Source: an uncultured Tateyamaria sp.
GTDB taxonomy: Bacteria; Pseudomonadota; Alphaproteobacteria; Rhodobacterales; Rhodobacteraceae
NCBI RefSeq assembly: GCF_947503045.1
Contig: NZ_CANNCF010000003.1
Coordinates: forward strand, 62,001-126,000
Direction of reading: 5' to 3'
Length of the DNA stretch: 64,000 bases
Shown here: positions 52,868 to 57,373 of the stretch, piece by piece
How the letters are laid out: each line of letters opens with the position of its first letter
Numbering within the stretch: the first letter of the stretch is position 1
Position numbers and translations under genes: made by a program
The notes under the pieces: model-generated
The model's database searches: none
The model's input: the letters and a program-made list of their open reading frames with translations, nothing else
Told to the model about the DNA's origin: nothing

Positions 52868-53794
52868 ATGATCCCGTCCGCTTTCTCTGCCCCTGGTTCG
52901 TTCTGGCGCGGCAACCTGCACACCCATTCGGATCTGTCGGACGGGGCAATTCCCCCGGCCGAGGTTTGCCGTCGTTACAAGGCGGAAGGCTATGATTTCA
53001 TTGCACTTACCGATCACTTCGTTGGCGAGTTTGACTATCCCATCGCCGATACGGTGCCGTTTCGGGATGACGCATTCACCACCATCCTCGGGGCCGAGTT
53101 GCATTCCGGCGCGATGGAGAATGGCGAGTTGTGGCACATCCTCGCGGTGGGACTTCCCGCAGATTTTGCACCCTCGAATTCGCCCCAATTCAACCCGATT
53201 CCCGATCAGGAGACCGGCCCCGAAATCGCGGCCCGCGCCCGTGCTGCCGGGGCCTTTGTTGCAATCGCCCATCCGCAATGGTCGGGCATGACGATGGACG
53301 ATGCCCGCTCGATCACATCGGCCCATGCGGTCGAGATCTATAACCACGGCTGCGCGGTGGAGTGTGATCGCGCGGATGGGATGTTCTATGCCGATCTGCT
53401 GTTGTCCGAGGGGCGGGACGTCACGCTGATTGCCACGGATGATGCACATTTTGAGGCCCCCGACGCCTTTGGCGGCTGGGTCATGGTCAAGGCCGAGGCC
53501 AATGATCCGGACCTGCTGCTGGCCGCCCTGAAGCGCGGGGAATTCTATGCCTCGACTGGCCCGGATCTGCGCGGGATCGAGGTCACCGAGGACGAGGTGA
53601 TTGTCACCTGTTCGACGGCATCCGTGGTCGTGGTGCAGGGGCACGGGTCGGTCGCCCCGGCAGTGTATGGCGCGTCGATGACCCGCGCCGTGATGCCAAT
53701 AAAGCGGCTGCGCAACTCGCCCTGGATACGGGTCACGGTGATCGATGCGGCGGGCAAACGGGCGTGGTCGAACCCGATCCGGCTGGTTGGGTAA
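52868..53794 (+). CDS. PHP domain phosphoesterase
   Basis: A 308 aa protein with polymerase-and-histidinol-phosphatase domain motifs: GNLHTHSDLSDG (HxHxxxSDG), FIALTDHF, LGAELHSG, FVAIAHPQW and IATDDAHF. These supply the His/Asp metal ligands. A smaller C-terminal beta domain (about residues 215-308) ends in ITDAAGKRAW-like VIDAAGKRAWSNPI. It is divergent from glpD. AAAGG 8 nt before ATG 52868 supports the start; the track start at 52724 is rejected. The phosphoester substrate is not known. Confidence 0.87.
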   Translation: MIPSAFSAPGSFWRGNLHTHSDLSDGAIPPAEVCRRYKAEGYDFIALTDHFVGEFDYPIADTVPFRDDAFTTILGAELHSGAMENGELWHILAVGLPADFAPSNSPQFNPIPDQETGPEIAARARAAGAFVAIAHPQWSGMTMDDARSITSAHAVEIYNHGCAVECDRADGMFYADLLLSEGRDVTLIATDDAHFEAPDAFGGWVMVKAEANDPDLLLAALKRGEFYASTGPDLRGIEVTEDEVIVTCSTASVVVVQGHGSVAPAVYGASMTRAVMPIKRLRNSPWIRVTVIDAAGKRAWSNPIRLVG

Positions 53795-53879
53795 GCCACC
53801 GCGCGCAACGCACGGTGGGTGTTGTGCAGCTTAGGGTGACGAATCAGGGTTAACGGCTGTGAAACAAGGGATTTGGGGA

Positions 53880-53934
53880 ATGCACCATGCGTGCACAACC
53901 TGTGCACAACCTGTACACCGCTTATGCACGCTTG
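53880..53934. repeat. Five direct repeats with exact 11 bp period (RTRCAC array)
   Basis: Consecutive 11 bp units read ATGCACCATGC, GTGCACAACCT, GTGCACAACCT, GTACACCGCTT and ATGCACGCTTG. The shared RTRCAC core starts at 53880, 53891, 53902, 53913 and 53924, so all five lie on one face of the helix. The last unit contains TTATGCACG, one base from the DnaA-box form TTATNCACA. The function is unknown. A cooperative protein-binding array is the simplest reading. Confidence 0.8.
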
Positions 53935-53965: not shown

Positions 53966-53980
53966 TTAAGAGAGGGTTAA
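53966..53980. promoter_or_regulatory. CtrA-type site TTAA-N7-TTAA
   Basis: TTAA-GAGAGGG-TTAA has the exact half-site spacing of alphaproteobacterial CtrA boxes. Single TTAAC half-sites lie nearby at about 53850 and 53941. It is a motif match only. Confidence 0.5.
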
Positions 53981-54381: not shown

Positions 54382-56085
54382 ATGATTGTTGGAATAGACC
54401 TCGGCACGACCAATTCCCTGGTATCGGTTTTCACGCCAGATGGGCCCATTTTGATCCCGAATGCGCTAGGGTCCACGTTGACCCCTTCGGCTGTCTATAT
54501 GGACGGCGAAGAGCGCATTCTTGTCGGCGCATCCGCCAAGGATCACCTGATCAACAATCCTCACACGGCGACTGCGCGTTTCAAGCGCCTGATGGGGACG
54601 GACAAGACCTCAACACTTCAGGGCAAGACCTATACACCCGAAGACCTGTCCAGTTTCGTGTTGCGCGCCTTGAAAGCCGACGCCGAGGCGTATCTTGGCG
54701 AAACCGTCACCGAAGCGGTCGTTTCGGTCCCTGCCTATTTCAACGAAATTCAGCGCAATGCGACCATCAATGCGGCCAAACTGGCGGGGTTGACCGTGCG
54801 CCGCCTGATCAATGAACCCACGGCGGCGGCCCTGGCCTATGGATTACAGGACAAGGAGGCCGAGAACACGTTTCTTGTCGTCGATCTGGGCGGTGGCACC
54901 TTTGATGTGTCGATCCTTGAGATGTTTTCAGGGGTGATGGAAGTGCGCTCTTCTGCGGGGGATGCGTTTCTGGGGGGTGAGGATTTCACCAACCGCATTC
55001 TGGATCATTTCCAAGAACAACTGGGGCGTAAGGCCACCGATCTGTCAGCCGCTGATCTGTCACGTCTGCGCAAGCTGGCAGATCAGGCCAAATGCCGTAT
55101 CTCTGACGAACCGCGGGTGAGCGTGGACTATCGCGACGGAGAGCAGGCGCACACGCTGACCCTGAGCCGCGATACCTTTGCGACGCTCAGCGAGGACCTG
55201 ATCAACCGAATGAAGGTTCCGTTGCAACGGGCCATTTCGGACGCCAACCTCAAGGCCTCAGAAATTGATCGGATCGTTCTTGTCGGGGGTGCCACCCGGA
55301 TGCCGTCGGTGCGCAATCTGATTGCCAAACTGTTCAAACGGTTTCCCGAGCATTCGATTGATCCAGACACGGTTGTCGCGTTGGGCGCGGCTGTGCAGGC
55401 CGGGCTGGTTGCGCGTGACGCGGCACTTGATGATGTCGTGATGACAGATGTCTGTCCGTTCACTTTGGGCTTTGAGACGTCACACAGAACAGGCCCGGAT
55501 GGTCAGGACGAACACGGCATTTTTTCACCCCTGATCGAGCGCAACACGACGATCCCGGCAAGTCGCAACACAATTGTGGAGGCCTCTCAGAAGGGTCAGA
55601 CGCGGATCGATCTCAAGGTCTTTCAGGGCGAGGCGCCTTATGTGAAGGACAACATTCCGATCGGGTCTTATCAGTTTGCCCTGCCCTACAACCGGCACGA
55701 CTACGAAAAAGTCGATGTCCGTTTCACCTATGACAGCTCCGGTGTGCTTGAAGTCATCTCGACCGTCGTGTCCACCGGGCAATCCAAAACGCTGATCATC
55801 GAAAACGCGCCCGGTGCGATGAGCGCGCAGATGATTGCAAAGCGGTTCAAGGAGTTGGAGAAGATCAAGGTGCATCCTCGCGATCTGGCCGTGAACGAGG
55901 CGTTGATTTCGCAAGCGTCGGCCGCCTATGCAAATGCGCTTGGCGTGCAGCGTCAGGAAATCGGTTTCCTGCTGAGCGAATTTGAGACGGTGCTGCGCAC
56001 CTATGACAATCGCGCCATTGAACAGGGGCGGCGCAAGCTGGGCGAATACCTGAGCGCAATTGACGGGGCCGGTGTGTTTGACTGA
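54382..56085 (+). CDS. HscC-type Hsp70 chaperone
   Basis: A 567 aa Hsp70. [10 protein letters not shown]-like [51 protein letters not shown] and [13 protein letters not shown] are the ATPase motifs. The substrate-binding part is short and the helical lid reduced, as in HscC (about 556 aa) rather than DnaK (about 640 aa). In E. coli, HscC works with the J proteins DjlB/DjlC. It is the first gene of a three-gene operon and overlaps the J-like gene. Confidence 0.9.
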
Positions 56086-57373
56086 TCCGTTCAAATTGCT
56101 TGGTTTGAACCGGGCCACCGCGACAGAGGCAGAGGTCAAAACCGCCTATGCCGCTTTGCTCAAAACCACCCGCCCCGAAGACGATCGCGCGGCGTTTATG
56201 GCGCTGCGCGAAGCTTTTACCAATGCGCGCGCCATCGCGCGGGGCAATGACACCCGTCGCGCAGCGCAGCCCGCACCCGAGATCAGCGAAGATCGCCCAG
56301 AGCCCGCCCCAACGCCCGTCACGCCGGTCAAGTGGACGTTTCACAAGCACATCGGCTGGCGCACCGCTGATAACGCCTATGGGCTTCTGGTAAAGGACAC
56401 GCTGGAATGGATGCTTGGCGGCGGCAAGGATGAAGACGTCTTTGTCGCGCAGGTTTCTGAACGCATGATTGCCAATGAAGACATCGAAGAGGCCCATTTC
56501 CGCGCAGAACTGATCAACTATATTCTGGCCAAGGGCGATACCGAGCATAAGGGCGATCATTTGCCGCAATGGGAACTGTTCGAGATCACCCGCCCGACGT
56601 GGCTGAACGACACCTTGATGGTTGTGTTGGCCAATGACCTGCGTCTCTTTGAAAGCAAACCCACCGACAGCTACAGCGCGCGCGCCTACAACGTCGTGCT
56701 GAACCTTTTCCAACCGGTGCTGGATCGCGCAAATCTTGCGGGTGATGTGCCCGATCCGGTCGATGCGGCAGGTCTGTTTGCAGAAGAACAGAACGCATAC
56801 GGCAAGGACGACCACGGCTCCCACTTTGATCGCGCCGAGATGAAGTGGAAAGACATGTCCCCGGTGGGTACCGCCATGCAGGACATAGACGCGGCTATCC
56901 AGCGTGGGCTGTGGGACCTGCCCGATCAGATCAAGGCCATTCTGGCGCGCGACGAGTTGCAGGTCATTGACGAGTATCAGGACCTCGACAACCGGCTGCG
57001 CGCCAAAATCTGTGAGGCGACCGGTCAGCACAGCAGCGATGGTGAACTGGTCTATCCCAGTTGGCTGACCCGCAAATTGCTTGTGTTGCTGGACGACACC
57101 TTCGGCTGGAGCAGACATCACGGGCGCCACACTTGGGAGCGCCATCAGTTCAGTTGGCTGCACAGGGTCATCGCGCGTAACCGCAAAATTCAAGGCGATG
57201 CGCCCGCCTTTCGCGCCGCACCCGATGCTCGGTTTGCTTCACATGGCGCGCGGCACAGGCAACCATCGGAGTCCCGCGGGCTCTGGTCGATCATCTACAA
57301 CAAACCGATGGTCCTTCTGGCCGGGTATCTGGGGTACCGCGTGCTTCAGATCGTTCTCAGGCTGGCCACGTGA
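56072..57373 (+). CDS. J-domain-like membrane protein lacking HPD
   Basis: A 433 aa protein. Residues about 3-55 align with a J domain ([45 protein letters not shown]). RPE stands where HPD, required to activate Hsp70, is expected. A soluble helical middle follows, and the C-terminus ends in one membrane helix (MVLLAGYLGYRVLQIVL). The plan, N-terminal J-like domain and C-terminal anchor, is that of DjlB/DjlC. The start codon is uncertain: GTG 56072 is used, TTG 56060 or 56078 are possible. The end overlaps the next gene (GTGA). Confidence 0.78.
   Translation: MCLTDPFKLLGLNRATATEAEVKTAYAALLKTTRPEDDRAAFMALREAFTNARAIARGNDTRRAAQPAPEISEDRPEPAPTPVTPVKWTFHKHIGWRTADNAYGLLVKDTLEWMLGGGKDEDVFVAQVSERMIANEDIEEAHFRAELINYILAKGDTEHKGDHLPQWELFEITRPTWLNDTLMVVLANDLRLFESKPTDSYSARAYNVVLNLFQPVLDRANLAGDVPDPVDAAGLFAEEQNAYGKDDHGSHFDRAEMKWKDMSPVGTAMQDIDAAIQRGLWDLPDQIKAILARDELQVIDEYQDLDNRLRAKICEATGQHSSDGELVYPSWLTRKLLVLLDDTFGWSRHHGRHTWERHQFSWLHRVIARNRKIQGDAPAFRAAPDARFASHGARHRQPSESRGLWSIIYNKPMVLLAGYLGYRVLQIVLRLAT

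Follow-up and report, generated by a model that had tools for sequence, protein, structure and literature searches.

What is a phased set of short direct repeats doing between two genes of a marine bacterium? The window analysed here, a stretch of 64,000 nucleotides from an uncultured Tateyamaria species, carries such a set between a gene for a PHP-domain protein of the CehA/McbA type (52868-53794) and a gene of the Hsp70 family (54382-56085), both named by profile search. The repeats start 86 bp past the stop of the former. The initial annotation described five RTRCAC cores, at 53880, 53891, 53902, 53913 and 53924, in an exact 11-bp step and with two units identical over 11 bp, and read them as a possible binding site for a cooperative regulator or for DnaA in front of an Hsp70 operon. 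The sequence agrees with the description (units 2 and 3 are both GTGCACAACCT), and the geometry supports a helically phased, cooperative-looking array on one face of the DNA. The reading as a binding site stands to that extent; the two identities offered for it, DnaA site and Hsp70 operator, are not supported, for reasons given below. What the view from a single window missed is that the array has sister copies throughout the genome and the family, that their flanking frame is conserved and that their orientation is linked to replication.

The window array and its sister copies

The window's own genome (G000, 4.74 Mb) was compared with those of congeners (genus of Tateyamaria omphalii), among them G001, G003, G009 and G015. 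Counting the pattern genome-wide, as the initial annotation had suggested, RTRCAC-N5-RTRCAC-N5-RTRCAC gave 73 three-unit matches in the whole of G000, which collapse to 28 arrays; the reversed pattern, run as a control, gave 0. When the distances between RTRCAC pairs were tallied over 400 kb in each of two genomes, the first of them G000, 11 bp was found 27 and 23 times and 22 bp 21 and 13 times, with 0-2 occurrences at nearly every distance that is not a multiple of 11. This accumulation at 11 and 22 bp means that the step is not due to chance. Congener G003 has 32 arrays, all on a contig of 3.86 Mb. Scored with a PWM of the core, true sites reach 34-64 bits, with few weaker ones, whereas the maximum is 1.8 in shuffled and 4.2 in reversed DNA; the window array scores 56.0 on the + strand versus 28.2 on the - strand. 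The arrays are spaced at roughly one, between genes, per 100-150 kb of chromosome.

A typical array consists of RTRCAC-N5 units, usually four clear ones, the last of which reads RTRCACCG. Aligned on this anchor, the arrays give the consensus RTRCACA-nn-CC / GTRCACA-nn-CT / GTGCACA-nn-CT / GTGCACCG, with GAAAAnGGCG or something similar upstream. Many other genera have the same CG in the last unit, so the element is a module of four units in fixed order, frequently flanked on one side or the other by a decayed unit, and not a free-running tandem repeat. Over 507 units from Rhodobacteraceae the unit reads Y-R-T-R-C-A-C-M-N-N-N, in which the search pattern itself dictated the RTRCAC letters; the first position of the RTRCAC core is G in 83% and A in 17% of the units, the third G in 64% and A in 36%. 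When the third position was relaxed to N, it was still only A or G among the matches listed.

About ten elements of G000, that of the window included, share a longer frame of about 190 bp, GCGCAACG ... GAATCnnGGGTTAACGCC ... array ... GGGTTAACGnAGCGTGCGGTGGGGTTTGTTAA-N7-TTAA, whose parts in the window are given in Table 1. The Tateyamaria-type frame is also found in elements of other genera. In 864 kb searched, 8 of the 11 matches to the right-frame motif adjoin an array, and one array-less match resembles the frame. Sites of CtrA form (TTAA-N7-TTAA) and left GANTC (CcrM) sites recur together in the long frames. In Paracoccus (L130, L159, L166, L186, L192 and L201) a CCAGCAATTGCTGG-like palindrome, unlike the Tateyamaria frame, lies to the left of unit 1, and a GCGTTGC-like motif often follows the array.

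Table 1. Features of the window array (53880-53929) and its flanking frame
Feature	Position	Strand	Remark
Array unit 1, ATGCACCATGC	53880..53890	+	In register with the genome-wide consensus
Array unit 2, GTGCACAACCT	53891..53901	+	Read from sequence
Array unit 3, GTGCACAACCT, same 11 bp as unit 2	53902..53912	+	Read from sequence
Array unit 4, GTACACCGCTT, the "last" unit (RTRCAC then CG), sets + orientation	53913..53923	+	
Trailing in-register core ATGCAC	53924..53929	+	Trailing or decayed unit common in the array family
Left GTTAAC of conserved frame (GAATCnnGGGTTAACGCC)	53849..53854	+	Common to about ten elements of G000 and elements of other genera
GANTC left of the array	53841-53845		Accompanies left GTTAAC
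Outer left frame GCGCGCAACGCACGGTGGG	53801..53819	+	Seen again in long-frame elements, some 105-110 bp to the left of the anchor
Right frame GTTAACAGAGCGTGCGGTGGGGTTTGTTAA	53940..53969	+	Motif mostly array-adjacent
TTAA-N7-TTAA, CtrA-site form, at right frame end	53966..53980	+	Repeated in several long-frame elements

Intergenic placement, conservation and loss

None of the 28 arrays of G000 overlaps a called gene, the calls being those of a simple codon-model gene caller written for this analysis, with orientations likewise derived by script. Nine of them have convergent genes on their two sides, a setting in which one expects no promoter; the remainder are mixed. Some arrays follow a terminator-like hairpin, one separates an ABC substrate-binding protein gene from its same-strand successor, and some frame-less arrays (L084 and L091) lie about 100 bp before a start codon. 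The neighbouring genes are unrelated (lepA, prfC, serS, gltD, ftsK and lolA, named by profile search; others were read from the sequence), and no recurrent neighbor that could encode an autoregulated binder was found beside the arrays. Such placement is unlike that of the operators of one regulon. Nor is the array supported as an operator of the Hsp70 operon: some 450 bp separate the end of the window array from the Hsp70 start downstream of it, and its sister arrays adjoin unrelated genes, often without a gene start. The region 54382-57373 of the window encodes a divergent Hsp70 (567 aa) and a downstream protein without a Pfam match. Relatives of this Hsp70 at 49-53% identity occur in only 3 of the 100 other genomes searched, the rest giving ordinary DnaK-level matches; since close relatives are so rare, the gene is unusable as an anchor for orthologous regions.

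Within the genus, the pattern is matched once or more in 14 of 19 congeners sampled, and 13 or more times in 9 of these. The distribution outside the genus is patchy, with 20 positives to the strict four-unit pattern in 397 family genomes, a sample of about one genome per genus; genera with array matches include Paracoccus, Planktomarina, Yoonia, Palleronia, Pontivivens and Sulfitobacter. A relaxed pattern of four TNCAC units retrieved nothing in the array-less congeners, and only TRCAC units among the matches listed. Matches in Bacteroidota and other phyla (ATACACTATCC and the like) are near-identical minisatellites without linkage to skew, and we take them as unrelated. Those of Flavobacteria and Chitinophaga (L137, L145, L158, L181, L229, L133, L170, L203 and L206) are 11-bp minisatellites with ATACAC or ATGCAC cores (ATACACTATCC, ATACACTCCCC); they ignore skew and look unrelated, and their recurrence in different genomes is odd.

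The initial annotation had named conservation of the 11-bp spacing in relatives as one half of a test of its reading, and the spacing is conserved. For 10 of the 19 G003 arrays examined, an array occupies the same gene junction in G000, with matching cores and differing 5-bp spacers, a comparison biased toward kept cores by the use of the same pattern to pick sites in both species. Downstream of gltD, the array lies at 14 bp in G000, 10 bp in Planktomarina and 14 bp in Paracoccus, in the same relative orientation; in three genera another separates lpdA from a MAPEG gene, again with the same orientation relative to the genes. Old copies are kept mainly at their cores, which argues for selection rather than recent spread. 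At lepA and at a second locus, some congeners lack the element as a block, and G009 shows a decayed remnant. This species, the closest relative of G000, has only 8 pattern matches; the remnant lies downstream of the substrate-binding gene (L278). The decay in G009 would represent a recent loss and could reveal the binder. In a genus tree built from two proteins, species without arrays or with few of them occupy no fewer than five separate positions, which makes the set an old one in the genus that has been lost repeatedly. With five or more losses in the genus and a presence in few genera, the function of the arrays is dispensable, a point against the reading that we favor below.

Array orientation and the direction of replication

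In G000, G003 and G015 together, the orientation of the arrays agrees with the sign of the local GC skew at 57 of 58 loci (p = 4e-16, binomial), a count that leaves out locus L107 of G000 and the window array. At the loci of these genomes, orientation bears no relation to the majority coding strand (20 versus 25), and where skew and coding strand conflict the array follows the skew in 24 of 24 cases. The rule extends to other genera, where independent loci agree with the skew in 42 of 45 cases (31 of 31 where absolute skew exceeds 0.03), and to further 3-kb loci (36 of 40). At the window array itself the local skew is weak (+0.014), so the link to replication rests on the sister sites.

Replication direction is taken here from GC skew together with parB, in genomes that are mostly drafts. 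For G003 the origin can be placed near 3.30 Mb, where the sign of the skew switches close to the canonical parB (3.3076 Mb). The 12 arrays nearest to it, on both sides, all point away. Along the whole arms 24 of 32 do so (p = 0.007), with the best concordance near the origin. Of the eight exceptions, seven coincide with a reversed local skew and the eighth with a skew of 0.000; inversions have to be invoked to explain the exceptions, and reversed skew is what inversions would give. In G015, 15 of the 18 arrays to the left of parB point away from it, as does the single array to its right. Counted by quarter arm from origin to terminus, the G003 arrays number 9, 10, 7 and 6, a distribution compatible with uniformity (KS p = 0.74), and the closest lies 25 kb from the origin. 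On G000 C2 and G003 C1 (L307-L346) the skew changes sign over tens of kilobases and array orientation flips along with it, as if many small inversions or islands had broken up the arms.

Skew is somewhat higher near the arrays than 4 kb away (0.079 versus 0.051, p = 0.003), which we tentatively attribute to the location of the arrays in old core DNA between younger islands. That the element itself might cause the skew was considered and rejected, as congeners with the element show no stronger skew at four-fold sites than those without it (weaker at lepA, equal in the gene at the second locus). A role of the arrays as points of skew reversal, origin-like or breakpoints, was likewise discarded, since in nearly all loci the skew has the same sign on both sides.

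Candidate functions of a polar chromosomal site

Placement that ignores promoters, combined with orientation that obeys replication, makes a role in chromosome maintenance the likeliest. The arrays are probably polar, one-unit-per-turn sites of a putative chromosome-maintenance protein and not a switch for a nearby gene. We hold with moderate confidence that the window array is one copy of a dispersed polar element of Rhodobacteraceae, bound head to tail and marking the direction from origin to terminus. Its core consists of direct 11-bp units, Y-RTRCAC-M-NNN, four in number and at times five or more, on which a sequence-specific protein would bind one protomer per helical turn, head to tail, along one face of the DNA; we infer this mode of binding, and its cooperativity, from the invariant T.CAC core that occurs once per turn, by analogy with OmpR/PhoB-type proteins and with ParR on their 11-bp repeats. 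In these intergenic sites the RTRCAC strand runs 5' to 3' along the skew-inferred movement of the fork, so that the bound complex may mark the origin-to-terminus direction on each chromosome arm. A moving machine, be it the replication fork, an SMC complex or an FtsK-type translocase, might read the complex or be resisted by it, and polarity would then be the function of the site.

These properties inspire comparison with other oriented sequences. KOPS are 8-bp motifs that guide FtsK and whose orientation runs from origin to terminus (PMC2680272). They belong to the AIMS, leading-strand-oriented octamers of selected polarity that by definition rise toward the terminus (PMC5993296). The arrays share the leading-strand bias, in the proportions of loci matching the skew sign given above (57/58, 42/45 and 36/40). 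However, they are some 30 complex four-unit sites of about 50 bp rather than hundreds to thousands of octamers, are intergenic, and show in G003 no rise in abundance or strand bias toward the terminus; the unit itself is 11 bp long and repeated, in contrast to an octamer for the gamma domain of FtsK. The uniform density, without the terminus rise seen for KOPS and other AIMS, is a point against the reading as direction marks that we favor. Another parallel is found in parC of plasmid R1, where ParR needs at least two 11-bp repeats (PMC9426499). Both consist of direct 11-bp repeats, those of parC being bound cooperatively by a segregation protein; but parC is a single plasmid locus beside parMR, whereas the arrays are dispersed, chromosomal and without adjacent par genes. 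An additional ParB-like protein was discarded as the binder, the array-bearing genome G037 having only one ParB_N match.

The polarity might serve to arrest replication forks. The arrays would then be barriers formed with a protein unrelated to Tus, open to forks on their way from origin to terminus and closed to those travelling in reverse; this would be one particular form of the direction-marking site. As in Tus-Ter, a limited number of polar sites are oriented to fork direction on each arm; the polarity relative to skew-inferred fork movement is strict on both arms, and several protomers bound head to tail could plausibly block from one side. We nonetheless find this variant quite unlikely. 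The sites, direct 11-bp repeats unlike Ter, are spread evenly along the arms up to 25 kb from the origin and do not cluster at the terminus, and a search for a Tus homologue (PF05472) gave no match over the cut-off in six array-bearing genomes, while the E. coli control was found. A different view holds that polarity has no role at all, orientation tracking skew only indirectly because old sites lie beside genes whose own replication orientation is conserved. Consistent with this, array orientation relative to neighbors is conserved at orthologous sites, and skew falls with distance from the arrays, as in old core DNA. Yet orientation is unrelated to the majority coding strand and follows the skew in every conflict, and the rule also holds in many genera for sites that are not orthologous, so that a cause is needed when the sites arose; the indirect view is distinctly improbable. 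Some transposons (IS200/IS605, and Tn7 with TnsE) insert with replication-linked orientation. A short mobile or intergenic repeat of MITE or REP type, inserted in a replication-dependent orientation, would account for the presence or absence of the element as a block at lepA and the second locus and for the long frame shared by about ten copies. Such an origin appears improbable, however, given that the copies within a genome are not near-identical, sharing cores but not spacers nor, in many, the frame; that position and orientation are kept across genera while spacers change; that Paracoccus copies have a different flank; and that searches of plasmids and phages with the arrays gave no match.

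Among protein families known to bind such repeats, response regulators of the OmpR/PhoB type come to mind, for which the arrays could be the operators and together form a regulon. Direct 11-bp repeats are exactly the geometry of this family, with one protomer per turn, as is predicted for the arrays; ArcA sites consist of two to five direct repeats, 11 bp from center to center (PMC3798270). Multi-copy, cooperative and clade-specific sites would fit, and so would the position of L084 and L091 ahead of a start codon. Even so, we judge it unlikely that the arrays are operators of this kind: they are not linked to promoters (beyond the nine convergent cases, others lie between a substrate-binding gene and its same-strand successor or follow a terminator-like hairpin), their neighbors form no regulon, and the site of a regulator need not follow the direction of replication, yet 57 of 58 do. 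CenR of Rhodobacter sphaeroides, a regulator of this family, moreover binds another motif, TGA-N8-TGA (PMC9275681). The DnaA boxes proposed initially, as clusters that titrate or regulate DnaA, owe their appeal to a TNCACA-like core, TRCAC(A) resembling the 3' half of the box, and to helical phasing, 9-mers with 2-bp gaps giving an 11-bp step. Indeed, TTATGCACG (53922-53930) departs from TTWTNCACA at a single position (from TTATCCACA at two), and CTGTGCACA has two mismatches; the initial annotation had noted one and two. The arrays nonetheless fail positions 1-3 of the box consensus: 0 of the 507 units match TTWTNCACA, and 83% have G at the W position. Nor did the PWM find any array in the 140 kb around the G003 origin (3.28-3.42 Mb, about the skew switch), and DnaA is universal, yet arrays are absent from close congeners. 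Binding by DnaA is highly improbable.

Among the readings weighed, the polar, direction-marking site thus remains the one that we favor. An Rfam search gave 0 matches up to E = 1, hence no known structured RNA, and such arrays were not described in the literature searched. The arrays would be a kind of polar chromosomal site with a putative binder, and a fully new system is possible. The sequence systems known to give a bacterial chromosome a direction are very few (KOPS, Chi and Ter). It is tempting to speculate, more tentatively than for the site itself, that Rhodobacteraceae possess another: a chromosome-orientation system of some 30 intergenic four-unit arrays, each carrying a bound head-to-tail filament of protein, that give each chromosome arm a direction which the fork, SMC complexes or a translocase would obey, in the manner of polar boundary elements, and which has been kept across genera and lost repeatedly. 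The arrays are discrete, easily recognised, limited to about 30 sites, nearly perfectly oriented and absent from close sister species, so that both the binder and the need for polarity are directly testable. They would, in addition, serve as markers of replication direction and of past inversions in draft genomes of a major marine family.
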